Virus record (IMG/VR): IMGVR_UViG_3300001848_000574 | Location: 1-31,223 of that record | Source: a virus | Strand: one strand, 5' to 3' | DNA: 31,223 bases | In this document: piece after piece, positions 10,315 through 24,282 of the stretch | Numbering within the stretch: the first letter of the stretch is position 1 | Layout: each line of letters starts with the position of its first letter | Made by a program: the position numbers and the translations under genes | Notes under the pieces: generated by a model | What the model was told of the DNA's origin: nothing | The model's database searches: none | What the model saw: only the letters and a program-made list of their open reading frames with translations

Positions 10315-10497
10315 TTACATTTTTGGCGGTTTTCTTCTAGCCAACCTCGTCATTATAGGATTTCTTTTTTTACTTACGCCTGGTTCTCTTTGTGATGCTG
10401 GCAATCTAGAATCACCAGAACCTGCAACGGCAGCAACAGTCATTCCACCACCAACTGCACCACCATCTTCAACAAAGAACTGTTTGAACGATTTCAT
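10315..10497 (-). CDS. small basic protein with capsid-targeting-like N-terminus
   Basis: A 60-residue protein read from the ATG at 10495-10497 (the open frame could extend 12 bp to a GTG, but the ATG overlaps the previous stop). The first ten residues, MKSFKQFFVE, resemble the T4 internal-protein capsid targeting sequence (MKTYQEFIAE type). The rest is Gly/Ala-rich (GGAVGGGMTVAAVAG) then strongly basic (KKRNPIM, RLARRKPPK), consistent with a small DNA-binding protein carried within the capsid. If a gp21-type protease cuts after Glu10, a 50-residue basic peptide would remain. Cleavage and packaging are inferred. It lies between a modular core-like protein and the spanin pair. Confidence 0.66.
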   Translation of the reverse strand: MKSFKQFFVEDGGAVGGGMTVAAVAGSGDSRLPASQREPGVSKKRNPIMTRLARRKPPKM

Positions 10498-11459
10498 CAG
10501 CAGTTCCACTTTCTCAATGATTTATTGATGCGTGAATTTGGATCGTGTGCGGTCTTAGCTGATGTTAAACGTTTTTTCATGCCACTCATTCTCGCACAGA
10601 ATGATTTGCGGCGATTGGCAGCTTTTGATCCCGGTTTTAGTTTAGAAGGTTTTGTTGTAACAGCTGTCTTTAGTGTGGAACCAGGATGTTCTCTACGATA
10701 AGACATTACGCCTTTTTGATTTAAACCACCAGAAGGATTCTTGCCTTCTTTGCGTTGCCATGCTGGAGTTGATTCATCAACTTGTTCAACATCTTCACCC
10801 CAGTATGGACGATTTGGATTTTCACGCTTCCATTTTGCTTCGGCTGATTCTGGTGGCTTTTTTGGACCTTGAGTTGCTTTTGCAATTTCAGCATTTTGTT
10901 TTTGATTTAATTTATTACCAGCCTTCAGATAACCTTTATCACGTTTAGCAATAGTAACTGCTCTTTTAACTGAACGATCACCTGCTTGAAAATCCGCAGA
11001 TAGTTTGTCGGCATGTGCTTTAGCTTTTGTTCTGTATGAAGTTAATGTTTCTTTACTGATTTCATCAATCTGTTCAACTTCTTCATTTACATCTTCGTTC
11101 TTGCTGGACAAATATGTTCCAACAGTATTGATGTAATCAGCAGCCAAAGTCACTTTTGATTGTACCCATGCTGGCATTTGCTTTTCATAATCTTTACCAA
11201 CATATTCACGGATCATTTTTGAACAACGATCAATATCATCCAGTTGATTTAATATCATACTGCCTTCGTCATCCAACATTTTACCCATAGCAATAGCAAT
11301 ATGATTTTCTTCTAATTCAACTTCTTCTGGTACGCAATTGGGAACCTTGCGGCCGCCTTTCATTTTCATTCCGACAGCAGTATAACCAGACCAGCAAGCG
11401 TCTTTTAATTGACCTGTTGGTTTTTTGACTTCGTTAATATATTCTTTAAATTTTTTCAT
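10497..11459 (-). CDS. modular internal/prohead-core-like protein
   Basis: This 320-residue, Lys/Glu-rich protein begins MKKFKEYINE, like T4 capsid targeting sequences with an I-x-E cut site. It is built from modules that recur across T4-like phages: KDACWSGYTAVGMK..GGRKVPNCVPEE (about 20-46), a helical AWVQSKVTLAADYINTVGTYL segment (97-116), a VEQIDEISKETLTSY module with ADKLSADFQ (128-158), a second VEQVDES (225-230), and a basic C-terminal block (RKSFCARMSGMKKR..DPNSRINKSLRKWNC). Each VEQIDE/VEQVDE offers an I/V-x-E site for the prohead protease. Likely a virion internal or scaffold protein that is processed; no enzymatic motif is seen. Start and stop overlap neighbours by 4 and 1-3 bp. 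Confidence 0.75.
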   Translation of the reverse strand: MKKFKEYINEVKKPTGQLKDACWSGYTAVGMKMKGGRKVPNCVPEEVELEENHIAIAMGKMLDDEGSMILNQLDDIDRCSKMIREYVGKDYEKQMPAWVQSKVTLAADYINTVGTYLSSKNEDVNEEVEQIDEISKETLTSYRTKAKAHADKLSADFQAGDRSVKRAVTIAKRDKGYLKAGNKLNQKQNAEIAKATQGPKKPPESAEAKWKRENPNRPYWGEDVEQVDESTPAWQRKEGKNPSGGLNQKGVMSYRREHPGSTLKTAVTTKPSKLKPGSKAANRRKSFCARMSGMKKRLTSAKTAHDPNSRINKSLRKWNC

Positions 11460-11870: not shown

Positions 11871-12581
11871 TTAGGCTGAAATTAGAATTCGGCCATTGGC
11901 AGAGGTTGCTGTAGCACCTGTACCTGTTGCAGATACAACTGCACGGAACACATAGTTGTTTGCATCCACATTTGTTGGATCAACAGTCAATGTTGCGGTT
12001 GTAGCGCCACTAATAATTGTGTTAGCAGGAATACCAGAACCATTCTTGTTACCGTTGGTCAAATCAACCCAAACACCACCGGCGTTGTTGTTAACTTGCC
12101 ATTGATATGTCAATGGAGCCGCAGTATTGCCAGCAGTAATTGAAGCTACAACAGAATATGAAACGGTATTTGCACTAGCAGCACTTACTGGACCTGCAAC
12201 TGAATCTGGTTGTGTGCTAATTGTAATGATGGCGTCTTGATAAATTGTATCTTCACCATCACCATTAACGCTAGCCAATGCAACTAAAGTTTCTGTTTGT
12301 ATACGACCTGCACGACCACCAGTACCAACGGTTCTCAAATTCCATCCTTTATGAGCACCCATGCCATGGCCTTGTGCTTGAATTTCATTTCCGTCAATAT
12401 TGAAAAGACCAATGGTTTCATTTGTAATATATGCGTCAGCTGTCGTATTGTTGTAAAGAATCGCAACATTGGCTGCTGTTGGTGCAGAATTTGCTGCTCC
12501 AGCTGCTGATTTTGCAATTGCTGAGCTAACTGCCCAATATGGAGCGTTAGCTGCGTTGTCGTTATTTCCCCAAGATGACAT
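11871..12581 (-). CDS. Ig-like domain virion structural protein
   Basis: A 236-residue Ala/Thr/Asn-rich beta-type protein. The N-terminal half (MSSWGNNDNAANAPYWAVSS, then GNEIQAQGHGMGAHKGWNLRTVGTGGRAGRIQTETLVAL) is a type seen in phage structural proteins. The C-terminal half (about 120-236) has an Ig-like fold pattern: ISTQPDSV, LTYQWQVNNNAGGVW with the core Trp, and TATLTVDPTNVDANNYVFRAVVS with the typical D-x-x-Y. Such domains decorate phage heads or tails and may bind surface glycans. It has its own AATAAATA late box, a strong AAGGAG site and a terminator directly behind, so it is an independently and probably abundantly expressed late unit. Head decoration protein is the best guess. Confidence 0.82.
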   Translation of the reverse strand: MSSWGNNDNAANAPYWAVSSAIAKSAAGAANSAPTAANVAILYNNTTADAYITNETIGLFNIDGNEIQAQGHGMGAHKGWNLRTVGTGGRAGRIQTETLVALASVNGDGEDTIYQDAIITISTQPDSVAGPVSAASANTVSYSVVASITAGNTAAPLTYQWQVNNNAGGVWVDLTNGNKNGSGIPANTIISGATTATLTVDPTNVDANNYVFRAVVSATGTGATATSANGRILISA

Positions 12582-12620: not shown

Positions 12621-13722
12621 TAATTGGTTTCTCTGAACCGAAAGTTGCTTGTTTTTTGGTTTTCATCATCGGATCAATCTCAATGGTGTCTCTTGGAGCA
12701 CCAGTCATAGTCTTACCACCACTTAAAACTGCTGCGGCTTGTGGTGCTTCTTTAGTCATAGCGTCAACGCCAGGTTTTTGCAACTTGGTCTTTTTACCGG
12801 GTGATGCAACAGGTTTATCTTCTTTTTCATGGTCAAACATATCTTCTTTAATGCCCTTCTTTTTATAGATGGACTTAATGATTCTTGCTGACTTTGACAT
12901 TTCTTTCATATTCTTGCGTTTTGCAGGAATTACATCATCAGGATTATTTGCACCGTCAAATGGCATTTGTGTGGCTGCGTCGGATCCATGGAAAACATCT
13001 TCTTTTTTAAACATCTTTTCGATTTGTTTTCCAGTAGATTTCATATGCCCCATCCAACGTTTGTTGGATTTTTTATACTCACCTTTTGATGCCAAATCCT
13101 TGGCTGATTGACCTGCTTTATCTCTGTAACGATTCAATAGTTCTGGTGACAATTCATTTAGATACTCAACGGCTTCTTTGATGTTGGCTACTGTATCGTA
13201 ATCATCCATCGTTAACATACCTTTTTTGCGAATTTCAATCAATTTTTCCACAACACGGTGTAGATCCATATCAGATTTTAAATCTTCACGTGCAAGTTCC
13301 AAAACACGAATCAATAAAGGAATATCAAATGTAACAGTATCTTTTTTGTCTGTTGCCTCAGAGTGTAATTGTTTATGGCCATCAGCAACACGAATTTCTT
13401 TATTCATGTGTTGTGCCTTTTTCAAAGCGTGTAATCTTTTTTGTGTTGGTGTGTGTTGAGAAGAAATAGATTCTTTCACAGGATCATTTAAATGCTGTGT
13501 CGCCCACATTTTATATGCATTTGTCTTAGAATGTGCAACTTTAATATCTTTTGTTGCAAATTCTGGATTAATACCCCTTGATTTCAGGTATTTGTCTAAC
13601 AAAGCAGTTTCTGTTATGTTTGCTTTGGCTGACCAAGGATCATTAGGATCGGTACCGAATGTTGGCTTACTACAACCACATCCTTTTACCGTATCCTTAA
13701 CTATTCTTGCTTTTCTGCTCAT
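12616..13722 (-). CDS. modular virion-associated protein with internal repeat
   Basis: A 368-residue Lys-rich protein, start chosen at the ATG 13720-13722 (MSRKARIVKD) since it overlaps the previous stop (ATGA) and an AAGG lies at suitable distance; an ATG 6 bp upstream is less suitable. Modules seen: a Cys-containing N-terminus (GCGCSKP), a HALKKAQHMNKEIRVADGHK stretch, a conserved helical FDIPLLIRVLELAREDLKSD region (about 133-152), and LNELSPELLNRYRDKAGQSA (188-207), which parallels the IDELSKSTLGSYVKSAA module of the next protein upstream. MSKSARIIKS near residue 275 repeats the N-terminal MSRKARIVKD. Probably a head or core structural protein; it has no targeting sequence of its own. Confidence 0.72.
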   Translation of the reverse strand: MSRKARIVKDTVKGCGCSKPTFGTDPNDPWSAKANITETALLDKYLKSRGINPEFATKDIKVAHSKTNAYKMWATQHLNDPVKESISSQHTPTQKRLHALKKAQHMNKEIRVADGHKQLHSEATDKKDTVTFDIPLLIRVLELAREDLKSDMDLHRVVEKLIEIRKKGMLTMDDYDTVANIKEAVEYLNELSPELLNRYRDKAGQSAKDLASKGEYKKSNKRWMGHMKSTGKQIEKMFKKEDVFHGSDAATQMPFDGANNPDDVIPAKRKNMKEMSKSARIIKSIYKKKGIKEDMFDHEKEDKPVASPGKKTKLQKPGVDAMTKEAPQAAAVLSGGKTMTGAPRDTIEIDPMMKTKKQATFGSEKPIK

Positions 13723-15110
13723 TTCCATGCCTTATCTTCGGTTGTACCTGTTTTGCCAAGCATTTCAGTTTTCATTCTTTTCATTGCTTGTTTAGCCAAA
13801 TGTTTAACTCTGGACATTGGTGTGTGTTTTGCACCAGATTTGTCTGTAACAGTTGCTGGTTTGGATGTTGGATTATATGGACCTTCAAATGGAACGTTAT
13901 CAGTTTCTGGTCTTTTAGACTCAGTTACTTTTTTTTTATCTTCTGGTTCATCATGTTCTGGTTTGCTTTTTTGTGCAGCACCACCATATGCACGACCAGC
14001 TTTAACGCCTGATCCACCTTTTGATTCTGGTGGTTTTGGTTTTTTCCAATCAAATGCATTTTCTTCTACTTGTTCGGTATCTTCTTTGGTCAAACGCTCA
14101 ACTGCCTTACCAATACCTGCATGACGTTTTTGGGCCGTAGCCATGAATTTTTTAGAAAGACTGGATGATGCTGCTTTTGAGCTAGGTTTTCTAGCTTTAT
14201 CTGCCTGATTCTGGAAATCGGCGGAAAGTTTACGAGAAGCACCAACATCTCTTGCTGCACTTTTCACATAAGAACCTAAAGTTGATTTTGACAATTCATC
14301 AATCTGTTCAACTTCTTCTTCAATATGATTTCCACCACATACGCATGGATCTTGCATACAGTCTGGACAAATATCGGTTTCAACTTCTTCGTTGCGTTGT
14401 TTTGCATAATAAGCGGCTAAAGCCATCTTTTTACGCATTTCTGTTGATTTGCCTTTAAACTTAGGATTATCAGAATGAACAAAATCGTGAATCCAATCAC
14501 CAGCTTTTGCATCTTTAGATAATACTTCTTGGATCATTTGATCGAAAATTGAATGTTCTTCGTATTCTTCTTTGAACTTCTTCAATGTCATGGCCAAATT
14601 GGCACGCTTACCTAATTTACCACCTTTTTCTGCTGCGGCTTTTAGTTTTTCGGCAGGAATCTTTTTGTCAGCAGGAACATGTAGTTGTTTGTGTAGGGCG
14701 CCTGGCTTTTTGATAGCCTTTTGGATCCATTTTTCTTTTTCTTCAATCTGTTCAATTTCTTCTTTTACATCACCAGCAATCTTAACTTTCTTAGACAAAT
14801 AAGGATCAGCAGATTTCTTTTCACGACCTTTTAATGTGTCTGTTACTTCTTCTTTCATTTTGGCTTGTTTGGCAGCTTGTTTCATTGGTTCTTTTTTATT
14901 GCCGTCTTTATCTAGATCCAAGAAATCTGGCTTAGCTGCTTCTTTAACTGGTTTCTGACCAGCACGAAGCTTAGCTAAATCACCAGCATCAATCTTATCT
15001 GCTGGAGGAGACATTTTAGCAATTTGCTTTTGTTTTGGAGAAAGTTCTTTTTTCTCTAAAATGGATTTTACTGAATCTGCAACAGAATCTTTTTTGTTAA
15101 GATTGATCAT
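13719..15110 (-). CDS. modular prohead-core-like polyprotein with Cys knuckle
   Basis: A 463-residue protein composed of short modules common in T4-like phages: SPKQKQIAKMSPPADKI (24-40), the EF-hand-like DFLDLDKDGNKKEP (62-75), KKPGALHKQLHVPADKKIP (134-152), STEMRKKMALAAYYAKQ (222-238), a cysteine knuckle CPDCMQDPCVC (248-258), and IDELSKSTLGSYVKSAA..LSADFQ (270-300). Three EQ(I/V)(D/E)E sites (120-124, 268-272, 346-350) fit prohead protease sites. The protein is very charged, with likely coiled-coil and disordered regions, consistent with a scaffold or internal core protein diced during head maturation. It overlaps neighbours at both ends through ATGA or similar. No enzymatic residues are seen. 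Confidence 0.72.
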   Translation of the reverse strand: MINLNKKDSVADSVKSILEKKELSPKQKQIAKMSPPADKIDAGDLAKLRAGQKPVKEAAKPDFLDLDKDGNKKEPMKQAAKQAKMKEEVTDTLKGREKKSADPYLSKKVKIAGDVKEEIEQIEEKEKWIQKAIKKPGALHKQLHVPADKKIPAEKLKAAAEKGGKLGKRANLAMTLKKFKEEYEEHSIFDQMIQEVLSKDAKAGDWIHDFVHSDNPKFKGKSTEMRKKMALAAYYAKQRNEEVETDICPDCMQDPCVCGGNHIEEEVEQIDELSKSTLGSYVKSAARDVGASRKLSADFQNQADKARKPSSKAASSSLSKKFMATAQKRHAGIGKAVERLTKEDTEQVEENAFDWKKPKPPESKGGSGVKAGRAYGGAAQKSKPEHDEPEDKKKVTESKRPETDNVPFEGPYNPTSKPATVTDKSGAKHTPMSRVKHLAKQAMKRMKTEMLGKTGTTEDKAWK

Positions 15111-16969
15111 TTTTTGCCTGCCTTTTTTCGTTTTATTGTATCGTAGGTATAACCAACTTTATCTTTAGGATTTTCAATCGGTTCTTTATTATCTGCACCG
15201 CTTAGTGTTCCAGCAAATCCAGATTCTTGATCGTTTTGAAATCCATTATACTCATTAATTGTTTTTCTAAACTTACCAAAATTTTTATCTTCTCTGTAAG
15301 TAACATCGCCCAATCCAGACATAGGGTATACTGTTCCCTGTTGGCGAGTGTCAAATTCAGGACCAATTCCAGATTGGTTTCTCAACCTTTGATTAACTGT
15401 AGGAGAGTCAACAAATCTGTTTTTTTTACTCTTTACTTTTTCTTTGTCTTGCTTGAAGTTGCTTTCTTTTGGCTCTGGGAAGATTTTGATCGACCCTTCT
15501 TTGGACTCGGAGTAGGTTCTGAAGGTGTAACTTCCACGCTTGGCGTTTCTGTCCCACTTGATGTTGTCTGCGTTTGGATCTCCTGCTCGATTATCGGCTG
15601 GGATATCTCCTGGACGGTCTGCTGTGGGGCCTGCTCCTGCACGGAGTTTTGGTTCGGAACCGCTGCTGTCCTTTCCGTAAAGTCCAATGGATGGCTTTCT
15701 TCTACTTTCTTTGAGCTTCTGAATAAATCTAGAATCTTTCTTAACATAATTTTGTTCCTCAACAAAAGACTGGTGAATATTATTATTTAGCTTACCGTGA
15801 TTCTCTAACCACAGGTATGCTTCCTCATTTAGAATCTTGATATCAATAAAATCGTTGATACTTTGGTATATATCTGTAATATCTTCTTCTATTTCTTCTA
15901 ACGAACCACTATTATTCAAATCAATAAAGTGTTCAAATTTATTCTGGTATAGTTCTTTGTTTGTTTGTGCTTCTTTCCACTTCTTCTGTCTTATGGATTC
16001 AGCAATCATTTTTGTCAGTTTTTCGTTGCGTTCTTTACTTGTTTCATTTGAAGTTTCAACGAAAACCATTAATGTATCGTATCCTAATTCTTCCAGTTCT
16101 TCCTTGATCCAGAACATCTCATTTTGTTTATCGGCAGGACCATTAATAATCAATGGTTTACGAGTTCTAATTGCTTCTCTACGATAATCAGCCGTTCTTT
16201 CTGTTAATTTTTGCTTATCGGCTAAGTATTCAAAGGCCTGAACCGAATTGATTTCCACAGCTCTGCTTTCGGCAATTGCTTCACGCAAAATAACATCTTT
16301 ACCAGAACCAGGTCCACCAGTAACAAAAATGGCTTTGAACATGCCACGATTGACATTTTCGTGTAGACCCATACCACGACGAACATCATGCATCAATTCT
16401 TTTGCATGTGTATCGGAAACATGATGTGGGACACCTTGACGGAAAGATGAAAAATCTTTGTTTTTAGCATGTTCACGCATTTTAGAACCAGACATGCCCT
16501 CTGTACCTTCTGCATCTGGGTCACGATGGCCAGCAGAATGAACGGTTATCTTTTTGAAATGGTACAATGCACCTTTGTGTGTACCATTATATTGGTGTAG
16601 TTTATCATGGTATTCTTTGACACGGTCTGAACCAGCAACCATATGTAAATGAGTTACACCTTTTTTGTGTAACTCAGCTGCATGGTGCAAAAATGTTGGA
16701 TGCTCTTTTGATGAAGTTGCAAAGTTTGTTCCAGGAGAATAACGCTTTAAGTGTTTGAGTTTTTGTTCTCCACTTAGAGGATTCTTTTTTGTGTCTTGTG
16801 AATGTGAAACAACAACGGAATGCTTTCCGCCGACCTTTTGTGCAACACCTTTAACTTTGTCGATTAGTTTCAAGTGTCCTGTGGTTGGAGGATTCATGCG
16901 GCCAAAGGCCATCACATGATGGTTTTCTTTAGTTTCTTCTTCTCTTAATAACTGTGAAAATGATTTCAT
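15107..16969 (-). CDS. nucleotidyltransferase-P-loop kinase fusion with capsid-targeting-like N-terminus
   Basis: A 620-residue protein with two enzyme domains. Residues 1-10 (MKSFSQLLRE) resemble a T4 capsid targeting sequence with an L-x-E cut site. Residues ~18-200 form a cytidylyltransferase/adenylyltransferase-like domain with GRMNPPTTGH (23-32, holding the T-x-G-H motif) and MSGSKMR (159-165, ISSTxxR-like). Residues ~208-380 form a P-loop kinase domain with GGPGSGKD (218-225). The rest (380-620) is disordered, including an unusually G+C-rich Gly/Pro/Asp/Arg stretch that overlaps a second open frame (15433-15747). Substrates are unknown; an NMN/CTP-type transferase and a nucleoside, polynucleotide or small-molecule kinase are possible. 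It overlaps the ligase-like gene upstream (ATGA), suggesting a joint function. Confidence 0.82.
   Translation of the reverse strand: MKSFSQLLREEETKENHHVMAFGRMNPPTTGHLKLIDKVKGVAQKVGGKHSVVVSHSQDTKKNPLSGEQKLKHLKRYSPGTNFATSSKEHPTFLHHAAELHKKGVTHLHMVAGSDRVKEYHDKLHQYNGTHKGALYHFKKITVHSAGHRDPDAEGTEGMSGSKMREHAKNKDFSSFRQGVPHHVSDTHAKELMHDVRRGMGLHENVNRGMFKAIFVTGGPGSGKDVILREAIAESRAVEINSVQAFEYLADKQKLTERTADYRREAIRTRKPLIINGPADKQNEMFWIKEELEELGYDTLMVFVETSNETSKERNEKLTKMIAESIRQKKWKEAQTNKELYQNKFEHFIDLNNSGSLEEIEEDITDIYQSINDFIDIKILNEEAYLWLENHGKLNNNIHQSFVEEQNYVKKDSRFIQKLKESRRKPSIGLYGKDSSGSEPKLRAGAGPTADRPGDIPADNRAGDPNADNIKWDRNAKRGSYTFRTYSESKEGSIKIFPEPKESNFKQDKEKVKSKKNRFVDSPTVNQRLRNQSGIGPEFDTRQQGTVYPMSGLGDVTYREDKNFGKFRKTINEYNGFQNDQESGFAGTLSGADNKEPIENPKDKVGYTYDTIKRKKAGKK
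15433..15747 (-). CDS. candidate nested gene in alternative frame, 104 aa
   Basis: Inside the nucleotidyltransferase-kinase gene, another minus-strand frame is open for 104 codons from ATG 15745-15747, with GAGGA eight bases before it. The product starts with a possible amphipathic helix (MLRKILDLFRSSKK), has a Gln/Thr/Pro-rich centre (VQEQAPQQTVQEIS, TTSSGTETPSVEV) and ends in a basic Ser/Lys tail (SSKTKKK). G+C is high here: by hand count 31 of 60 bases at 15541-15600 and 36 of 60 at 15601-15660, against 14 of 60 at 15841-15900, as expected if two frames constrain the sequence. It could instead be chance openness in a G+C-rich low-complexity segment. Function unknown. Confidence 0.45.
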   Translation of the reverse strand: MLRKILDLFRSSKKVEESHPLDFTERTAAVPNQNSVQEQAPQQTVQEISQPIIEQEIQTQTTSSGTETPSVEVTPSEPTPSPKKGRSKSSQSQKKATSSKTKKK

Positions 16970-18162
16970 TTACGTACTTTTAACAGATTTATCTTACTGA
17001 ATTCTTTGCGATTTACTAACTTTGTTGGTTCACCTGCATGATGAACAACAAATCCTTCTGGATCTGTTCTTTTTAGTTTACCACCTTCAACTTCTACGTG
17101 ATGTTCTAATCCACCTTCATGTTGATTTAATGTTCTAACTAACACATCTTTTGCTTGTTGTAGATGGTGATGCATCTTTAATAAATTATCATATTGTTGT
17201 TTATTCTTTTTAATATGATCGACATGTAATTTTGCTTCAGCTTGTTTTCTACCTTGAGCAGCAGGAGTCTTTAATTTTTCACCGGCCTTTTTATACTTAT
17301 CCTGTATGAATTTTGATAGACCTTCTGCGTTTGGTTTTTCGTCTGTTCTTACTGTATGGTTAATATATTGTTCTAGATGACCGCCTTCACCACTATGTGG
17401 ACTTACAGCAGAATACATCTTTTGACCATTTTTATCGTGAATTTCTTGTGCGGCTTTAATATGTTTATTGAATTCACCTTGGTCATCAACAGAATAGTGT
17501 ACTTGTTTGGTATCATGGTTTGGTGAAATTCTCCAAACGTCTGGGTGATTTTTGAAGTTGTGTAGGTCTGGATGCGGATCGGCACTCATGGCTTTTGCAG
17601 AATCACCATGATATTGCGTGTGTACCACTACTCCAAGCTTTGCTTTTCTAACCTTATCAGCTTCTTCACCCTTTGCCGTATACTGAATAGTGTTTGGTGT
17701 AAAAGAAACTCCTTGTTTTGTTTCTTTCTTATCATCACCAGAGAACATCAAATCACCTTGATAAACACCAGTTTTTGGTGCGACTTTCTTTAGGTGATTC
17801 AAAGCATCATGTAACTTGGCCATTAAACCTGGTGCGTGACCATGGTTTTTTAATATATCGGCATGTGTATAGTTAACTTTTGGTGTTTTGTTGAAAGCGG
17901 ATTTTGACGCAACAAAAAACTTACCTGTTTCTGGGTGATGACCAAACACGATAGATGGTGAACCATCATATTTCATAGTCAAATGCGAACTGTTGCCACC
18001 AGACTTAATATGCTGGTGTGCTTGTTTTAATGCGGCTACGGCATGGTCGAAACCTTCTGCACCTTTTTGCAAAGGTCTATCTTCCGCATGAGTAATGTGT
18101 TTTAATTTTCCGCCTTCGGCTTCTTCAGCCTGTTCACGGATATATGTGACGAAATCTCTCAT
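16966..18162 (-). CDS. ligase-like covalent nucleotidyltransferase with capsid-targeting-like N-terminus
   Basis: A 398-residue protein starting MRDFVTYIRE, resembling T4 capsid targeting sequences with an I-x-E cut site. The body shows nucleic-acid-ligase-like motifs: motif I KYDGS (Lys64 as the AMP-accepting lysine), a GVYQGDLMF strand (132-140) in the motif III region, LGVVVHTQY (177-184), motif IV EGFVV (369-373) and motif V KLVNRKEF (381-388). The ~185 residues between are an unusual His-rich helical insertion. It may be an RNA or DNA ligase or another adenylating enzyme; a conserved phage family of this kind exists without a defined role. It is the first gene behind a TATAAATA late promoter, so it is made with virion proteins. 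AAAGG lies upstream of the ATG. Confidence 0.75.
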   Translation of the reverse strand: MRDFVTYIREQAEEAEGGKLKHITHAEDRPLQKGAEGFDHAVAALKQAHQHIKSGGNSSHLTMKYDGSPSIVFGHHPETGKFFVASKSAFNKTPKVNYTHADILKNHGHAPGLMAKLHDALNHLKKVAPKTGVYQGDLMFSGDDKKETKQGVSFTPNTIQYTAKGEEADKVRKAKLGVVVHTQYHGDSAKAMSADPHPDLHNFKNHPDVWRISPNHDTKQVHYSVDDQGEFNKHIKAAQEIHDKNGQKMYSAVSPHSGEGGHLEQYINHTVRTDEKPNAEGLSKFIQDKYKKAGEKLKTPAAQGRKQAEAKLHVDHIKKNKQQYDNLLKMHHHLQQAKDVLVRTLNQHEGGLEHHVEVEGGKLKRTDPEGFVVHHAGEPTKLVNRKEFSKINLLKVRK

Positions 18163-18201
18163 TGATACCTTTTGAAATGCAACACACTTTGGTTGCCTGC
18201 G

Positions 18202-18228
18202 GTATATTTATATAAGATTTAAATATAC
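18202..18228. repeat. inverted repeat surrounding late promoter
   Basis: GTATATTTA (18202-18210) and TAAATATAC (18220-18228) are perfect 9-bp inverted arms with a 9-bp spacer. The left arm contains most of the late promoter box. It may be a regulator site or a consequence of the AT-rich palindromic box; a similar arrangement exists at 31038-31055. Confidence 0.55.
18205..18212 (-). promoter_or_regulatory. T4-like late promoter (TATAAATA)
   Basis: A perfect minus-strand TATAAATA, the T4 late promoter box read by gp55-type sigma with gp33 and the sliding clamp. It lies about 43 bp before the ATG of the ligase-like gene (18162), in the 105-bp gap between the glycan genes and the capsid/lysis genes. 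It marks the start of the late transcript. No terminator is recognised for the glycan genes in this gap. Confidence 0.8.
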
Positions 18229-18267: not shown

Positions 18268-18960
18268 TCAATAATATTCAATATTGCCATTTCCAGACAA
18301 CCATCCAAAACAATGAATTTGGTCCAATTCGACCAGATATTCTTTTGGAATATTATGGAAATGTGCATGTTCAGTATCAAAACCTTGTTGAATTACTGGT
18401 ATGTTTTTTCTAATGACTTCAAGGTACGTGTCTATTAATGATGGACACATAGAAAACATTCTGGTGATTAGAAGATCCGATATTTCTTTATTGTGCATCC
18501 AAGTTGGTATTCTTTTCTTAAAAACGAATTTACCAAAAATATCATGTTCTTCTGCATTAAAACCTTCCAACAAAACACTTCTACCAGAAAACTTAAAGAT
18601 TCTTTTAACCGAACTCATCATTTTTGATGTGTCTGGATTCTGTTTAAGTGTAAGTAATGTTTTGTATAACATTAGATTTTCAGCAAGACCTTTTTGACCA
18701 ACTTGAGATAGTTTTAAAACATCAGCATCTTGCGTCATATCAATAAAATAATTTGACTTTTCTGCAACTGAAGTTCTTTCTAAATCTGTCAATGCACGTA
18801 TAGAAGCATCAGTTGTTACGATAATTGCATCAGGAACAATCTTGCGAATTGATCTTAGACCATCTACTGTTTGTTGAAATCTTTCACCGTCACTAAAAGG
18901 ACTTACCAAAGGTTTTAACGCTGAAGTAACGATGAATAGGTTTTTGTCAGGCATAATCAT
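18268..18960 (-). CDS. glycosyltransferase-like protein (hypothetical)
   Basis: A 230-residue alpha/beta protein that opens with a beta strand and loop (NLFIVTSALKPLVSPFSDGERFQQTVDGLRSI; IIVTTDAS), reminiscent of GT-A glycosyltransferases, followed by a helical region (GLAENLMLYKTLLTL) and FKFSGRSVLL, KKRIPTWM and a GFDTEHAHFHNIPKEY segment rich in His. No clear DxD motif is seen, so the call rests on general pattern and gene context. It is the last gene of a seven-gene glycan block. The ATG makes an ATGA overlap with the preceding nucleotidyltransferase-HAD gene. It may transfer a sugar to the activated product made upstream. Confidence 0.55.
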   Translation of the reverse strand: MIMPDKNLFIVTSALKPLVSPFSDGERFQQTVDGLRSIRKIVPDAIIVTTDASIRALTDLERTSVAEKSNYFIDMTQDADVLKLSQVGQKGLAENLMLYKTLLTLKQNPDTSKMMSSVKRIFKFSGRSVLLEGFNAEEHDIFGKFVFKKRIPTWMHNKEISDLLITRMFSMCPSLIDTYLEVIRKNIPVIQQGFDTEHAHFHNIPKEYLVELDQIHCFGWLSGNGNIEYY

Positions 18961-19988
18961 AAAAAATCACTTAATTTATCATCATTTCTATAAAGATTGA
19001 TTGCAACTGCCCTTGGATATGGATTTGATTCATTATAATCATTAATCAGTATGCGTTTTGAATTCTGCAAACCACAAATGAGATTGAAACTCATAAACCC
19101 AAGGTCATACAACATTTGTCTGGTGATACTGGTATATTCGTTTGGTCTTGCTGATGTAAAGATAAATTGAGCACCTTTGGCTTGTAATTCTAACAATCGT
19201 TTGATATTCTTATGCAAAGGAATAGGTTTGCTCTCATAACTATTTGAACCAACACGTGTCTGGTTCTGTATGATTGTTCCATCAATATCACAGAAAATGA
19301 CTGGTTTATCATTATATTCAAACCAATCATTTGCAGTACCAACATCAACATAATCTGTAATATACTTGTTAGTAAAGATTTGTAGATTATTGATGCAACG
19401 ACCAATTACATCTGAAACAAACACTTCCCTATTAGTGTTTAATTCTTCAAAAGCCTGTTTATATAACATTGCTGATGAAAACTTATAACCACCGACACAA
19501 AAGGTGTCAGACACAACTTCTTTCTCTACGATATCCGTTATTATACCATTATTGTTAGCAATTGTAAAGCTTTTTGATGCCAACTTCTTTAGGATTTCAT
19601 GTTGTGAAATTTTTGTAACACAAACGTAGTTGTCGCCTTCGGTAATATCATGCTCAAAAAAACTATCACAATCTTTAATGAATATCTCGGAAGTGTGTAA
19701 TCCTGCGGATTTAATGATTTGATATACTGTGTCGGCCGGACCTCTGGTTGGTTTATCAATAATCACATAATTGATATTGTCAGCCCATTCATGTTGTATC
19801 TGTTCAATAACACCATACTTTTCTTCGTGTTCTTTTAATATGCCTATATGAATTCTAAATCCTTTCTGTCTAAAGGTTCTCAAGGCATTCATCAACATCA
19901 TTTCACCCTTATAATCATATAATAGATATTTGGGCTTCATATTTGGAAATCTGGTAGAAAGACCAGCTGCTGGTACAATTACTTCCAT
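18957..19988 (-). CDS. sugar/alcohol-phosphate nucleotidyltransferase fused to HAD phosphatase
   Basis: A 343-residue two-domain enzyme. Residues 1-~225 are a nucleotidyltransferase with VPAAGLSTRF..KPKYLL (5-23, the NTP-binding G-x-x-x-R and Pro-Lys) and KDCDSFF (105-111, the metal-binding acidic site). Residues ~228-343 are a HAD domain with the nucleophile motif CDIDGTII (233-240: Asp234, Asp236) and FTSARP as motif II. Such enzymes activate a sugar-1-phosphate or phosphocholine-type compound to its NDP/CDP form. The attached phosphatase may trim or supply the substrate. Its overlap with the APH-like kinase suggests that the kinase phosphorylates and this protein activates the same small molecule, as in LicA/LicC; the substrate cannot be read from sequence. 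Confidence 0.82.
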   Translation of the reverse strand: MEVIVPAAGLSTRFPNMKPKYLLYDYKGEMMLMNALRTFRQKGFRIHIGILKEHEEKYGVIEQIQHEWADNINYVIIDKPTRGPADTVYQIIKSAGLHTSEIFIKDCDSFFEHDITEGDNYVCVTKISQHEILKKLASKSFTIANNNGIITDIVEKEVVSDTFCVGGYKFSSAMLYKQAFEELNTNREVFVSDVIGRCINNLQIFTNKYITDYVDVGTANDWFEYNDKPVIFCDIDGTIIQNQTRVGSNSYESKPIPLHKNIKRLLELQAKGAQFIFTSARPNEYTSITRQMLYDLGFMSFNLICGLQNSKRILINDYNESNPYPRAVAINLYRNDDKLSDFL

Positions 19989-20722
19989 AATCTATGAATC
20001 TCTTTCATTAAAAAATTGTAATTATTATCACCACGTTCACAATATTGAATTACTCTCAATAACATTAATATTAATAGTGAATCGTCAATATCTTGTGAAA
20101 ATGAATGTTTGATTTTTGAATTTAATATCTCTAACTTGGTATCTAGTTTAACTTCCGAGTTGCGTAAAAACCATTTACATTCTATGTCTTGTCTTAGTTT
20201 TGCAAGATCGAACACATAAGAATCATATTCTGTCGTGACAGGATCAATCATAACAAAACCTGTGTTTGTGTGCAATATATTTTCTAGTGTAAAATCGCCG
20301 TGATATGTGGATTTAGGAAGAACTTTTGGTAATTTTGCAATTAAATCATACTTTGTGAATGGCATATCTTTTGATTTGTCCAACCAAGCCAATTTATTGT
20401 AGTATGTTTCTGTGTAATCTTTCATTTCAGATTCATTAGAAAAACTATCCATTGTTTCGTTGATGAAATTGAACAACTGATTGATATTATTATGAATCAA
20501 ATAATTCTTCATGTCCAAACCATGGATATATTCCATCAGTAGACTATCATCGATTGATAGGTATACTTTTGGAACATGATATCCCAGTTTTGTTAATTCG
20601 GACATTCTTTCAAGATTGCGTTTTGTGTTACCGATCTTTTCGACACAATAAACACCTTCAATCTCTTTCAAATAAACTTTTGAACCAGAATGACCTTGTA
20701 ACTCTTTAATTATTTTTTCCAT
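19979..20722 (-). CDS. APH/choline-kinase-like small-molecule kinase
   Basis: A 247-residue protein of the aminoglycoside phosphotransferase/choline kinase fold. It has a short N-terminal lobe (GSKVYLKEIEGVYCVEKI), the catalytic loop HGDFTLENIL (141-150: Asp143 as base, Asn148 for metal) and the metal-binding MIDP (158-161) followed by YDSYVFDLAKL. In bacterial glycan loci such kinases phosphorylate choline, ethanolamine or sugars before activation. The gene sits immediately before and overlaps the nucleotidyltransferase-HAD gene by 10 bp, and overlaps the upstream gene by 13 bp. Antibiotic resistance is unlikely given the context. Confidence 0.8.
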   Translation of the reverse strand: MEKIIKELQGHSGSKVYLKEIEGVYCVEKIGNTKRNLERMSELTKLGYHVPKVYLSIDDSLLMEYIHGLDMKNYLIHNNINQLFNFINETMDSFSNESEMKDYTETYYNKLAWLDKSKDMPFTKYDLIAKLPKVLPKSTYHGDFTLENILHTNTGFVMIDPVTTEYDSYVFDLAKLRQDIECKWFLRNSEVKLDTKLEILNSKIKHSFSQDIDDSLLILMLLRVIQYCERGDNNYNFLMKEIHRLWK

Positions 20723-21393
20723 TGTTCTATATCATCACGAATCAAAGAGTGCCATGTTCCATTATATGGTCCTGGTGGAAATGGATTATTCATATTGACA
20801 TAGACGAGATTCTCACCACAAAGACCATGATATCTCAAATTGGCTTGCATCAGATTTTCACCAATAAAGTTTGCACCATTTTCATAGTATTCATCTATAC
20901 GTTCAAAAGTGGACATATACTTTTTCATGTTTTTTTGTGAACTAAATGCAAATTGATCGTTGCCAAAATCTCGTTCTGGTACCATACGACAGTTTGGTAT
21001 ATACAGTTTTGAATTATTCAGTTCTGAAAAAGGTATTACCACATTTAACGCATAGTCGGTCCTTGTAGAAATGACCCAATCATATTGCCCATCAATAAGT
21101 TTCAACACCTCATTCTTTGAGTAAAACATTGAATAGGTGAATCGTGGTGGGTGTTTAACTGCATCCGGTGTTCTGGTGTAAATTGAATCGTAATCACACA
21201 TCAACTTATCTTCAAAAAGATAATCTTTAGGTTTGTATAGTCCATTTACACAAGACACACCTTCAGTTGCGGTTCTTTTCCAACTATGGATATAAACATC
21301 AACATCATAGTGATCCAAAAGATTGCGCTTGAAATATTCGTAACCTTTTTCAAACGATCTGGTTTGACCAGAAAAACATAATGCAATTTTCAT
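20710..21393 (-). CDS. glycosyltransferase-like protein
   Basis: A 227-residue protein beginning KIALCFSGQTRSFEKGYEYF, then a DVDVYIHSWKR strand, features of a family of glycosyltransferase-like proteins found in phages and large viruses. A later YDWVISTRTDYAL (D-x-x-like acidic turn), NDQFAFSS and LMQANLRYHG strengthen the GT-A-like impression. It would transfer a hexose or similar unit to glycan or protein. It lies between the methyltransferase and kinase genes with ATGA and 13-bp overlaps. Donor and acceptor cannot be predicted. Confidence 0.7.
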   Translation of the reverse strand: MKIALCFSGQTRSFEKGYEYFKRNLLDHYDVDVYIHSWKRTATEGVSCVNGLYKPKDYLFEDKLMCDYDSIYTRTPDAVKHPPRFTYSMFYSKNEVLKLIDGQYDWVISTRTDYALNVVIPFSELNNSKLYIPNCRMVPERDFGNDQFAFSSQKNMKKYMSTFERIDEYYENGANFIGENLMQANLRYHGLCGENLVYVNMNNPFPPGPYNGTWHSLIRDDIEQWKK

Positions 21394-21959
21394 TTAATCC
21401 AATACCAAACATCACATTCTGTTGTTAGAATTTCTTTGCCTACTTTAACAGCAAACTCTTTGGCTGCACGATTGACACCTTCGATGGCGGTAAAATCGTG
21501 GCCAGCAAAAATGCCTCCAGGTTTAACCTTGGAATAATAGTTTGCACAGTCAATCGTTAATTGTTCATAGGTGTGTAAACCATCAATAAAGACCAAATCA
21601 TATTCACCATCACCAAATAATCCGGATGCATCATCAGATGTTTTACGAATGTGTGTAAATCTGTTTGAATAACCTTTTAATCTGTCATTCATTCTTTTAC
21701 ACATTTCTTCACGTTCGTTCATCATTCTGCCGTTCCAGTCTTGGTATTCCATATAAGGATCAACAGAAGTTAAATTCAAAGTGGGATTTGAATCTAATAG
21801 AAAATTGGCTGTGTCTCCAATATCACAACCAATTTCAATTGCTCTTGGATTTTTCAAATCTTTAATCAATGCACCTAGACCGTAACCAGAACATTTAAAA
21901 GATTGTTGTTGAATACCAAATGCTTGGTTTTCTGTATTAAAAACAATCACATCATTCAT
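21390..21959 (-). CDS. class I SAM-dependent methyltransferase
   Basis: A 189-residue Rossmann-fold methyltransferase with a SAM-binding motif I (AIEIGCDIGDTANFL, about 40-54), an acidic SVDPYMEYQD end of strand 2, and the DLVFIDGLHTYEQ segment (about 120-132) typical of the Methyltransf_24 type, then KPGGIFAGHDF. Members in glycan loci methylate sugar hydroxyls or amino-sugar precursors. The position between two glycosyltransferase-like genes suggests capping or decoration of a glycan. The gene is only two bases from the upstream stop and overlaps downstream by ATGA. Confidence 0.85.
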   Translation of the reverse strand: MNDVIVFNTENQAFGIQQQSFKCSGYGLGALIKDLKNPRAIEIGCDIGDTANFLLDSNPTLNLTSVDPYMEYQDWNGRMMNEREEMCKRMNDRLKGYSNRFTHIRKTSDDASGLFGDGEYDLVFIDGLHTYEQLTIDCANYYSKVKPGGIFAGHDFTAIEGVNRAAKEFAVKVGKEILTTECDVWYWIK

Positions 21960-21961
21960 GA

Positions 21962-22819
21962 TTAAACCTTGTAGACGAACGAACCACTATCGTCTTGTTG
22001 ACCAAACTTTTCTTGGACGAACTTTTTCCATTCGGGAACACGATCATATTGGTGAACGATTGGATATACATATTGATCGTGTGTTTTTACCAGTCCATCC
22101 TGGAATACAGGTTCAGCCGAAAGCAATTTTGGTCTAAAATCGTTGATCTTTGTAGGATCAGCAACAGTTCCAGCTTCGCAAGCCCAATGATATGAAGCTA
22201 CAATACTATCTTTAAATGGTTGTGTGTTGATTAAAACATTGAATACTGCCTGATCACAAATTGGAATCGGTCTGTTGATGGCGTTTGTGAAAATGTGAAA
22301 AACCATATCCATAACATAATCTGCATGACCACCAAAAGTTCCAACATTATAGATTGGCATATTTTTAAATAAACCATGAACGTATGGTCCATATGATTTG
22401 AAAAGATTTTCGTTACCCCAAGGTTCATCACAATATCTTAGAGCTTCACCTGCAATCACTAGTCTTAAATTTCCTGGTGAATCAAAAGCTGTTTCAAAGA
22501 AATCGAAAGGACTCTTTTGGAAATAAACATCTTTAACATCTGTCACTACAACATAATGATAGTTTGCCCAAAAGTTTCTTAGATATTCATAGATATAAAG
22601 AAAACGATATACGTGAATAGGAATATTATCGTTTTTGGCCATAGGAAAAACAATTACTCCTTGTTCTTCCAACCACTTAGTAGTTTCTTCGGTAGTTTCA
22701 CCCGCACACAATACAACATCGCAATTTTCACCGCCATGTTCTTTCGCAGATAAAACCCAAGGTTTTAACTCGTTAATACCATATCTTGTAAAACCACCAA
22801 TAATTAAATTTTTATCCAT
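21962..22819 (-). CDS. glycosyltransferase-like protein, GT-A type
   Basis: A 285-residue protein of GT-A fold appearance: an opening strand with LIIGGFTRYGI, then CDVVLCAGE, the probable DxD metal motif in VVVTDVKDVYF (about 90-100), YNVGTFGGH and a catalytic region CDQAVFNVLI, typical of glycosyltransferases that check acceptor position with a D-Q. Its C-terminus contains HQYDRVPEW. It overlaps the family 2 glycosyltransferase by 16 bp. Likely adds one sugar of the phage-directed glycan; the donor is unknown. Confidence 0.75.
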   Translation of the reverse strand: MDKNLIIGGFTRYGINELKPWVLSAKEHGGENCDVVLCAGETTEETTKWLEEQGVIVFPMAKNDNIPIHVYRFLYIYEYLRNFWANYHYVVVTDVKDVYFQKSPFDFFETAFDSPGNLRLVIAGEALRYCDEPWGNENLFKSYGPYVHGLFKNMPIYNVGTFGGHADYVMDMVFHIFTNAINRPIPICDQAVFNVLINTQPFKDSIVASYHWACEAGTVADPTKINDFRPKLLSAEPVFQDGLVKTHDQYVYPIVHQYDRVPEWKKFVQEKFGQQDDSGSFVYKV

Positions 22820-23514
22820 GGGAACTCTCCATTATATTTTTGTTTCATAATTTCATTGCCTTTTAAAAAGAATTCTGCATTAACAGAACCCGGATTTCCA
22901 TCAACACGATAGTTAACTGTGTATTTACCAGTACAATCAAATTTAGGAAAATGTTGAGATAACACAGAAAGAAAAACTCTGTCTTGGCCCCAACCGCCAT
23001 GCCATACACTTGCTAATTTTATCGCAACCGATGTTTTTATGCAATAGCAATTAGTATCTATGTGATTTACTCCATGATACGTTTGCCATTTACCAAGAGA
23101 TTCGCAATCATCGTTACAAATATAATTGCCTTCTTTGTCACATATCTTACGGAGTGAATAGGACCAATCCAGGTCTTTCTCTTTCATGATTTCGATACAT
23201 TGTTCTACGTGATCTGGTTCGAACCAACAGTCTTGATCCAGGTAAAGAACATAGTCGGTATTGATTAGGTGTGTAAATGCTGCATAAACACGATGGCCAT
23301 AGAATCCGTTGGCACCGACATTAATTGGTAGAAAACACTTTTCTAATTTTTTTCTTGATAGAAAATTATCGGTAATAATTCTCGTTTTTGAATGTGTTTG
23401 AATACCATCAGCTACAACATAGCACATGGTATCATATGTTTGATTCATCACACCTTTTACAGCATCTTCCAACTCTGGAGAACCCGTGGTTGGTATAATC
23501 ACAGTTGCACTCAT
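22804..23514 (-). CDS. glycosyltransferase family 2
   Basis: A 236-residue GT2-type protein: SATVIIPTTGSPELEDAVKGVMNQTY at the N-terminus is the classic nucleotide-sugar-binding start, and YLDQDCWFEPDHVE (about 95-108) contains the D-x-D motif. A Cys-rich stretch (KICDKEGNYICNDDCESLG) may bind a metal. GGWGQDRVF resembles the acceptor/catalytic E/D-D motif. It begins the seven-gene glycan block after the PD-(D/E)XK gene. It probably adds the first sugar of a glycan to a lipid carrier, host lipopolysaccharide or a virion protein. Confidence 0.88.
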   Translation of the reverse strand: MSATVIIPTTGSPELEDAVKGVMNQTYDTMCYVVADGIQTHSKTRIITDNFLSRKKLEKCFLPINVGANGFYGHRVYAAFTHLINTDYVLYLDQDCWFEPDHVEQCIEIMKEKDLDWSYSLRKICDKEGNYICNDDCESLGKWQTYHGVNHIDTNCYCIKTSVAIKLASVWHGGWGQDRVFLSVLSQHFPKFDCTGKYTVNYRVDGNPGSVNAEFFLKGNEIMKQKYNGEFPWIKI

Positions 23515-23535: not shown

Positions 23536-24282
23536 TTATACGAAACAACCCAAATTCATTTGATTCTTAATTATATTAACCGATTTTCCATCCACCGGTG
23601 CAATATTAAACGGAGATTTTTTAGAAGAAGGAATAGAAAACTGCATTTCAAAGGTAAATTGATAGTTGTCGCTGCCCTTATATTGTACACGAATACGATA
23701 TATTGCTTTTGCTGATTGTCCAAAACGAGGAACATCTTTAAGTTTCAAAGGGTTTGAACTTCCCATCAAATAAAATCCATGTGTTCCAACGTTTACATAG
23801 TATGTATCTTTCTTGTTATAGTATTCTTCAATTTTAGAAGCAGAAATTTCACCTTTAATATCAGGAAAAGTATCTCTGTCTCTTTCGTATATTTGTTTTT
23901 TAGACATACCTTTTGTTTGTAAAGGTAATAAATCGTCCTTCTCTCTTTTCAGAGGAATACTTTTCCAGTTTTTCTTAAGCAAATCATACACACCAATTTC
24001 TTCCGCAAGATTTTTGATGAACATTTTTTCTGCATCATCTTCTTGAATTTTATTGAAAGACCATGGGTTTCTTTTATTTTTCCCGTCATACTTTAACACA
24101 AGAGAACCTGCTGATGCAGCTGAAATTTTCAATTCGCAACCTGATTTCTTATTGTTATGTTCCAACATCAAATCAGGCTGGTCATGGCCTGCGCCAGCAG
24201 GAACAAAAGATTTTGGAACCAAACCTAATGGTTTTAAAACTTTTGCTGCGTTCTTTTCGTATTCGAAACCTTGTTGTGCCAT
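23536..24282 (-). CDS. PD-(D/E)XK nuclease-like protein
   Basis: A 248-residue protein with a candidate PD-(D/E)XK nuclease core: Asp37 in HDQPDLML and Glu50-x-Lys52 in GCELKIS, spaced 13 residues apart as in many restriction and repair nucleases, with an upstream helix (GFEYEKNAAKVLK) containing a Glu. The C-terminal half has no recognised domain (PVDGKSVN, FEMQFSI). A GATAAATA late-like box lies ~20 bp upstream, suggesting late expression, perhaps a host-DNA or recombination-intermediate nuclease. The identity of the active site is inferred from the motif alone. Confidence 0.6.
   Translation of the reverse strand: MAQQGFEYEKNAAKVLKPLGLVPKSFVPAGAGHDQPDLMLEHNNKKSGCELKISAASAGSLVLKYDGKNKRNPWSFNKIQEDDAEKMFIKNLAEEIGVYDLLKKNWKSIPLKREKDDLLPLQTKGMSKKQIYERDRDTFPDIKGEISASKIEEYYNKKDTYYVNVGTHGFYLMGSSNPLKLKDVPRFGQSAKAIYRIRVQYKGSDNYQFTFEMQFSIPSSKKSPFNIAPVDGKSVNIIKNQMNLGCFV

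Follow-up and report, generated by a model that had tools for sequence, protein, structure and literature searches.

Does a viral protein that combines ligase-type motifs with a leader resembling a capsid-targeting sequence (CTS) travel in the virion as an enzyme? The question is raised by one gene in a 31,223-nucleotide stretch of viral DNA (IMG/VR record IMGVR_UViG_3300001848_000574, positions 1 to 31,223; hereafter the window). The window belongs to a T4-like freshwater phage. The gene, at 16966..18162, encodes a 398-residue protein with the N terminus MRDFVTYIRE. An initial annotation, made from the letters alone, had described this open reading frame and proposed that its product is a packaged ligase; the frame is as described and lies on the minus strand, which had not been stated. 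We give a probability of roughly 0.7 to the whole reading, in which a ligase-like protein would be made late, packaged by means of its CTS, cut and injected.

The protein is a full-length member of Pfam family DUF6267 (PF19782; E=1.6e-98, 330.9 bits against a curated cut-off of 27) and of PHROG_455 (E=6.5e-94), and the family is known in the cyanophage literature as T4-GC71. It is basic (isoelectric point (pI) 9.3) with a mass of 44 kDa. Relatives occur in 471 phage records, nearly all of them from T4-like phages infecting marine and freshwater bacteria, so that DUF6267 is a widespread T4-like family, and it carries no function label. In the literature searched, the name DUF6267 appears nowhere, and capsid targeting is tied to cyanophages nowhere beyond one T4 review. 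One member (40% identity; locus L304) comes from a 104-kb contig assigned to a Nitrosarchaeum metagenome-assembled genome; the contig is probably of phage origin.

Predicted fold and catalytic-type residues

An AlphaFold2 model built from an 89-sequence alignment has a mean predicted local distance difference test score (pLDDT) of 91.5 and a predicted template modeling score (pTM) of 0.88, with low confidence only in residues 1-18 and the final three. Foldseek placed a DNA ligase on top (E=0.024, probability 0.85), and RNA editing ligase 1, Trl1, T4 DNA ligase and LigA appear amid weaker noise in what is a mixed list. To remove the effect of a large insertion, we also folded a naturally shorter DUF6267 member (pLDDT 90.1), which is homologous to the long form along its length (hhalign E=3e-48). 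With this model, all 50 of the PDB matches listed are DNA, RNA or tRNA ligases or mRNA guanylyltransferases. The model thus places a nucleotidyltransferase fold around Lys 64, as the initial annotation had anticipated, and DUF6267 very probably belongs to the covalent nucleotidyltransferase (ligase/capping enzyme) superfamily. At the sequence level, searches of the PDB with phmmer and with the 89-sequence profile matched no solved ligase or superfamily member; the matches obtained, ACE2 for example, were dismissed as coiled-coil noise.

The KYDG, EGFV and KLV motifs noted earlier are all present, and their key residues do not vary among the 89 relatives. Motif I, K64-Y-D-G67 (17962..17973, minus strand, as are all features below), lies at the end of strand 57-64 and contains the lysine predicted to be adenylated. 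A motif III-like Q135-G-D137 (17752..17760) sits in strand 133-141, followed by a motif IIIa-like strand from G177 to G186 (17605..17634) in which H181, Y184 and G186 are invariant. Motif IV, P368-E-G-F-V372 (17047..17061), and a motif V-like K381-L-V-N-R385 (17008..17022) complete the series. Invariant throughout the alignment are K64, D66, G67, Q135-G-D137, P368-E369-G370, V372, K381, V383 and R385, and the conserved motif residues occupy the expected predicted strands. Motifs I, III, IV and part of V are shared, in the predicted order and within strands, with T4 Rnl1 and Rnl2, the Naegleria RNA ligase, ATP-dependent DNA ligases and capping enzymes.

Unlike the ligases, DUF6267 has ~180 residues between motifs IIIa and IV (residues 187-367; 17062..17604). 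This insertion is mainly helical (AlphaFold2 helices within 225-345) and, in profile alignments of the long and short forms, is shorter in members of the S-SM1/S-SCSM1 type. The initial annotation had called it His-rich. The insertion itself stands, but its histidine content (9.9%) hardly departs from the 8.9% of residues 19-186, the whole protein being rich in histidine. A second feature that sets the family apart from ligases is an N-terminal H..H.ED motif whose H22, H25, E27 and D28 are invariant.

The probable capsid-targeting leader

According to the passages on T4 IPIII mutants in a review (PMC9026906), residues 4 and 7 of the T4 CTS serve targeting and residues 8 and 10 serve processing, and the prohead protease gp21 cleaves after L/I-X-E. 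Codons 1-10 of the DUF6267 gene (18133..18162) encode F4, Y7, I8 and E10, which fit the T4 CTS at all four mutation-defined residues. By analogy, gp21 is predicted to cut after Glu 10, before the glutamine of I-R-E-Q. The likeness noted in the initial annotation extends to the window's clade, where all 41 distinct leaders retain F4, F/Y7, L/I8 and E10 while positions 2, 3, 5, 6 and 9 vary. This pattern supports selection on the leader at precisely the functional CTS residues. An exact pattern, defined as an aromatic residue at 4 and at 7, I/L/V at 8 and E at 10, has a chance rate of 1.4e-4 per position; ~0.006 occurrences would be expected across the 40 genes of the window, and two are observed.

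The resemblance to the T4 internal proteins IPI, IPII and IPIII extends beyond the ten-residue leader, with its aromatic residues at 4 and 7, I/L at 8 and Glu at 10, to a late promoter, a basic product and the presence of gp21, gp22 and gp23 in related genomes. The difference lies in the cargo, which for DUF6267 would be a 44-kDa protein with an enzyme fold, whereas the T4 proteins are small phage-specific inhibitors. The gp21 gene (PF03420) is absent from the 31-kb window. Of 11 records from relatives, 9 contain it, and the 2 that do not are fragments of 53-56 kb. Close relatives encode gp21, gp22 and gp23, and an LNE site around residue 50 is conserved in their gp23.

Of 160 DUF6267 sequences taken from environmental contigs, 106 carry a CTS, 30 that form one clade retain FxxF but not Glu 10, 8 show a short LxE leader and 16 are leaderless. 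On a tree whose root is arbitrary, the CTS appears in several deep lineages and has been lost or changed repeatedly. These lineages include Stenotrophomonas phage DLP6, whose DUF6267 starts with the exact CTS MMKFTQFLAE; phage C48C1 also has an exact CTS leader. Whereas all members of the window's clade carry the CTS, the cyanophage members checked (S-SM1, S-SZBM1, S-CRM01 and S-PM2) lack it. In a marine clade (loci L110-L145) the leaders read MFSFKGF.T(K/Q), with the targeting aromatics kept and the cleavage Glu gone; judging from these leaders, such proteins are possibly targeted yet uncleaved.

Association of the leader with virion proteins

The published virion proteome of cyanophage S-CREM2 (PMC10665884) allows the leader to be compared with virion content. 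We translated all 219 coding regions of S-CREM2 and scanned them for the exact CTS pattern. Three proteins carry it, a SAM hydrolase (MKDFDSFLEE), an APH-like kinase (VKRFDAFLTE) and an NMNAT-like cytidylyltransferase, and each was detected in the virion (Fisher p=0.013 for the whole protein set and 3.7e-4 for its non-structural part). The overall value is the safer figure because the structural/non-structural split counts hypothetical proteins of the tail and head region. The authors of that study caution that enzymes of this kind might have come through CsCl purification as contaminants. In the same genome (locus L174), gp6, gp12, gp13 and gp14, all detected in the virion, form a block whose members have CTS or CTS-like leaders, that of gp13 being MKDLHSFLTE. 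We excluded the Cas9-like virion protein gp12, where LRFASFMAEA begins at residue 17, since the codon there is CTG and no counted start.

The NMNAT-like type of protein is also encoded next to DUF6267 in the window (15107..16969), where NMNAT/cytidylyltransferase-like (PF01467) and P-loop kinase (PF13671) domains follow a relaxed CTS, MKSFSQLLRE. Such proteins have been found in four cyanophage virions, as S-SM1 GC190, S-SCSM1_91, S-SZBM1_140 and S-CREM2 gp154. Three of the four have the exact CTS, among them S-SM1 GC190 (MKKFSAFLNE) and S-SCSM1_91 (MKSFLQFLKE), and S-SZBM1_140 has a near-CTS, MRFRQFIIEA. The T4-GC190 protein is like the DUF6267 protein in being encoded in the same operon as its partner and in its type of CTS, and it is a virion component; its fold is different, and its CTS goes unremarked in the literature searched. 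The S-CRM01 kinase, which PMC10665884 gives as reported in virions, begins MISFDQFLSE.

Across the 160 loci, nearly all exact CTS matches fall at gene starts and are borne by unrelated proteins. Of two relatives with long contigs, one (120 kb) has the exact tag solely on DUF6267 and the other (111 kb) solely on four genes of the DUF6267 operon. Exact leaders also begin a HAD/5'-nucleotidase-like protein at L161:9054 (MKKFTQYLKESTSA..LDMDETI) and an adenylate-kinase-like protein at L143:1261 (MKRFKSYIKEE..GGPGSGKST). As read from these sequences, the two leaders suggest a changeable cargo set.

Late promoter and leader hairpin

A T4-type late promoter, TATAAATA (18205..18212), lies 50 nt before the DUF6267 ATG; the initial annotation had noted a perfect late promoter ahead of the gene. 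Its mere presence is not special, as the window contains 2 sites against 2.7 expected; because this count is at chance, the case for the promoter is made by conservation. The motif occurs within 90 nt upstream of DUF6267 in 63 of 79 relatives, compared with 73 sense-strand copies in the whole 817 kb of their sequence. This supports late expression of the gene.

Between promoter and start, beside the ribosome-binding site, lies a hairpin, GCAAC-CAAAGTGT-GTTGC (18179..18196). Its five pairs enclose a loop that is constant among relatives (consensus GCAAC-CAWAGTGT-GTTGC). In four of the five pairs both positions vary, 99.4% of cells are paired, and none of 500 shuffles scored as high. Across the loci the hairpin is found solely before the DUF6267 gene, save for one unrelated match, and no Rfam family matched anywhere in the window, hairpin included. 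It is possibly an element of translational control or mRNA stability.

Proposed mode of action

In the mechanism that we propose, DUF6267 would be made late, as the first product of a late operon that also encodes the similarly tagged NMNAT-like/P-loop-kinase protein. The CTS would direct it into the prohead, where gp21 would free it by cutting after Glu 10, and it would then be packaged alongside the DNA and injected into the host. After entry it would probably form a Lys64-AMP intermediate and transfer the nucleotidyl group, probably acting jointly with the NMNAT-like protein; some phages encode the two as a fusion. Judging from the fold, it would most likely seal or repair nucleic-acid strands. 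We regard delivery in the capsid as likely; polynucleotide ligation is plausible but somewhat less likely than not. The packaged-ligase interpretation is partly supported: in its favor are the ligase-superfamily fold, CTS-equivalent leader, late expression, gp21, gp22 and gp23 in relatives and the tag on relatives' virion enzymes, while presence in virions, cleavage after Glu 10, auto-adenylation and ligation are predictions and the description of the insertion as His-rich is inaccurate.

Several observations weigh against this interpretation. The Foldseek E-values are weak singly (best 0.024 and 0.064), none is significant and the TM-scores are low, so we claim membership of the superfamily and of no particular ligase family. 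Motif V is without the usual second lysine (KLV.R instead of KxK), and in the model a single helix follows it before the chain ends; DUF6267 thus differs from ligases and capping enzymes in having no OB-fold (oligonucleotide/oligosaccharide-binding) or other C-terminal domain there. The many marine members without Glu 10 (30/160) or any leader (16/160) mean that packaging is not family-wide. The CTS-less DUF6267 of S-SZBM1 (S-SZBM1_141, start MAKNTHLEH) is absent among 30 virion proteins; S-SZBM1_139, a virion protein that we had expected to be DUF6267, proved not to be. Finally, the genetic link between DUF6267 and the NMNAT-like enzyme also fits metabolism of nicotinamide adenine dinucleotide (NAD).

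Alternative explanations

The readings considered here overlap, as an NAD-linked role also presumes packaging, and the probabilities given to them are not expected to add up to one. The NAD-linked role is a strong rival because DUF6267 is naturally fused to an NMNAT-like protein, although we consider it rather unlikely. The NMNAT-like/kinase partner would make NAD+, and DUF6267 would be a nucleotidyltransferase in the same pathway, or else an enzyme dependent on NAD+ that releases nicotinamide mononucleotide (NMN) for the partner to recycle; on injection, the pair would restore NAD+ early or against NAD-depleting defenses. The two genes are adjacent and naturally fused, the neighbor has the layout of an NMNAT plus P-loop kinase, and NMNAT-like proteins are repeatedly detected in virions. 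The six ligase motifs, moreover, do not account for the invariant H22, H25, E27 and D28. But Foldseek places DUF6267 closest to nucleic-acid ligases and capping enzymes, and the NMNAT specificity of the partner is itself putative. More speculatively, DUF6267 could be an NAD+-consuming ligase, the resulting NMN being recycled by the partner.

It is improbable that DUF6267 is a late cytoplasmic enzyme that stays unpackaged, its leader being a chance or unrelated amphipathic start. The absence of the leader from many marine relatives would agree with this, as would the lack of direct virion detection of DUF6267, but selection at exactly the CTS residues, the tag on unrelated virion enzymes and the low chance rate of the pattern argue otherwise. 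Slightly less probable still is an internal head protein whose role is structural or DNA-binding and whose nucleotidyltransferase fold is inactive: the high pI, the long helical insertion and the unorthodox motif V are in keeping with it, yet a purely structural role would not need K64, D66, G67, D137, E369, G370 and K381 to be invariant in 89 divergent sequences. Least probable is that the enzyme acts within the maturing prohead on ends or nicks of the phage DNA. By analogy with T4 the CTS would place the protein there ahead of DNA filling, but IPI, the T4 CTS cargo of known function, acts after injection (PMC9026906).

Neighboring genes

In S-PM2 the C-terminal half of DUF6267 shares one open reading frame with the cytidylyltransferase; BFVD contains a 591-residue fused S-PM2 protein. 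In the S-PM2 record (L082, 5968-7765), a break near record position 103530 splits DUF6267 over two frames, of which the second enters the cytidylyltransferase; the break may be either a sequencing error or a genuine frameshift.

The second exact-CTS protein of the window (10497..11459) begins MKKFKEYINE, has a C-terminal DUF6321 and shares a motif with the virion protein S-SZBM1_139. A small open reading frame (10315..10497) has a relaxed CTS, MKSFKQFFVE, at an internal ATG. In the same operon, the product of 11871..12581 is a homologue (blastp E=2.4e-6) of S-SZBM1_136, a virion protein detected by mass spectrometry. The motif EEVEQIDE(L/I)SK.TL.SY recurs in several late proteins (10497-11459 and 13719-15110 in the window); the I-D-E within it would suit cleavage of the gp21 type, so that the proteins are candidates for core proteins that are processed.

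Upstream, the run of genes at 18268-23514 appears, from translations only, to encode nucleotidyltransferase/HAD, kinase/choline-type, methyltransferase and glycosyltransferase-like proteins, and resembles a surface-glycan cassette adjoining the late operon. The product of 23536-24282 has a PD..ExK-like pattern (QPDLMLEHNNKKSGCELK), matches PHROG_26930 and is possibly a nuclease of the restriction-endonuclease fold.

Significance

CTS cargo, virion NMNAT-like proteins and DUF6267 as a named family were already known. New with respect to the literature searched are the assignment of DUF6267 to the ligase superfamily, its CTS, and the rule connecting the tag with virion enzymes in these phages. 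It seems somewhat probable that the portable ten-residue tag is a cargo code by which T4-like phages of freshwater and marine habitats load a changeable enzyme kit (DUF6267, NMNAT-like/kinase proteins, SAM hydrolase and APH-like kinase), with DUF6267 as an injected nucleic-acid- or NAD-linked nucleotidyltransferase of the first minutes of infection.

A widespread cyanophage gene thereby gains a fold and a testable chemistry. The tag further points to a simple rule, checked against a single published virion proteome, by which sequence would predict the enzymes that T4-like phages bring into cells; it could also be exploited to load such phages with proteins of choice. Enzymes loaded in advance would work ahead of phage gene expression, when host defenses strike.

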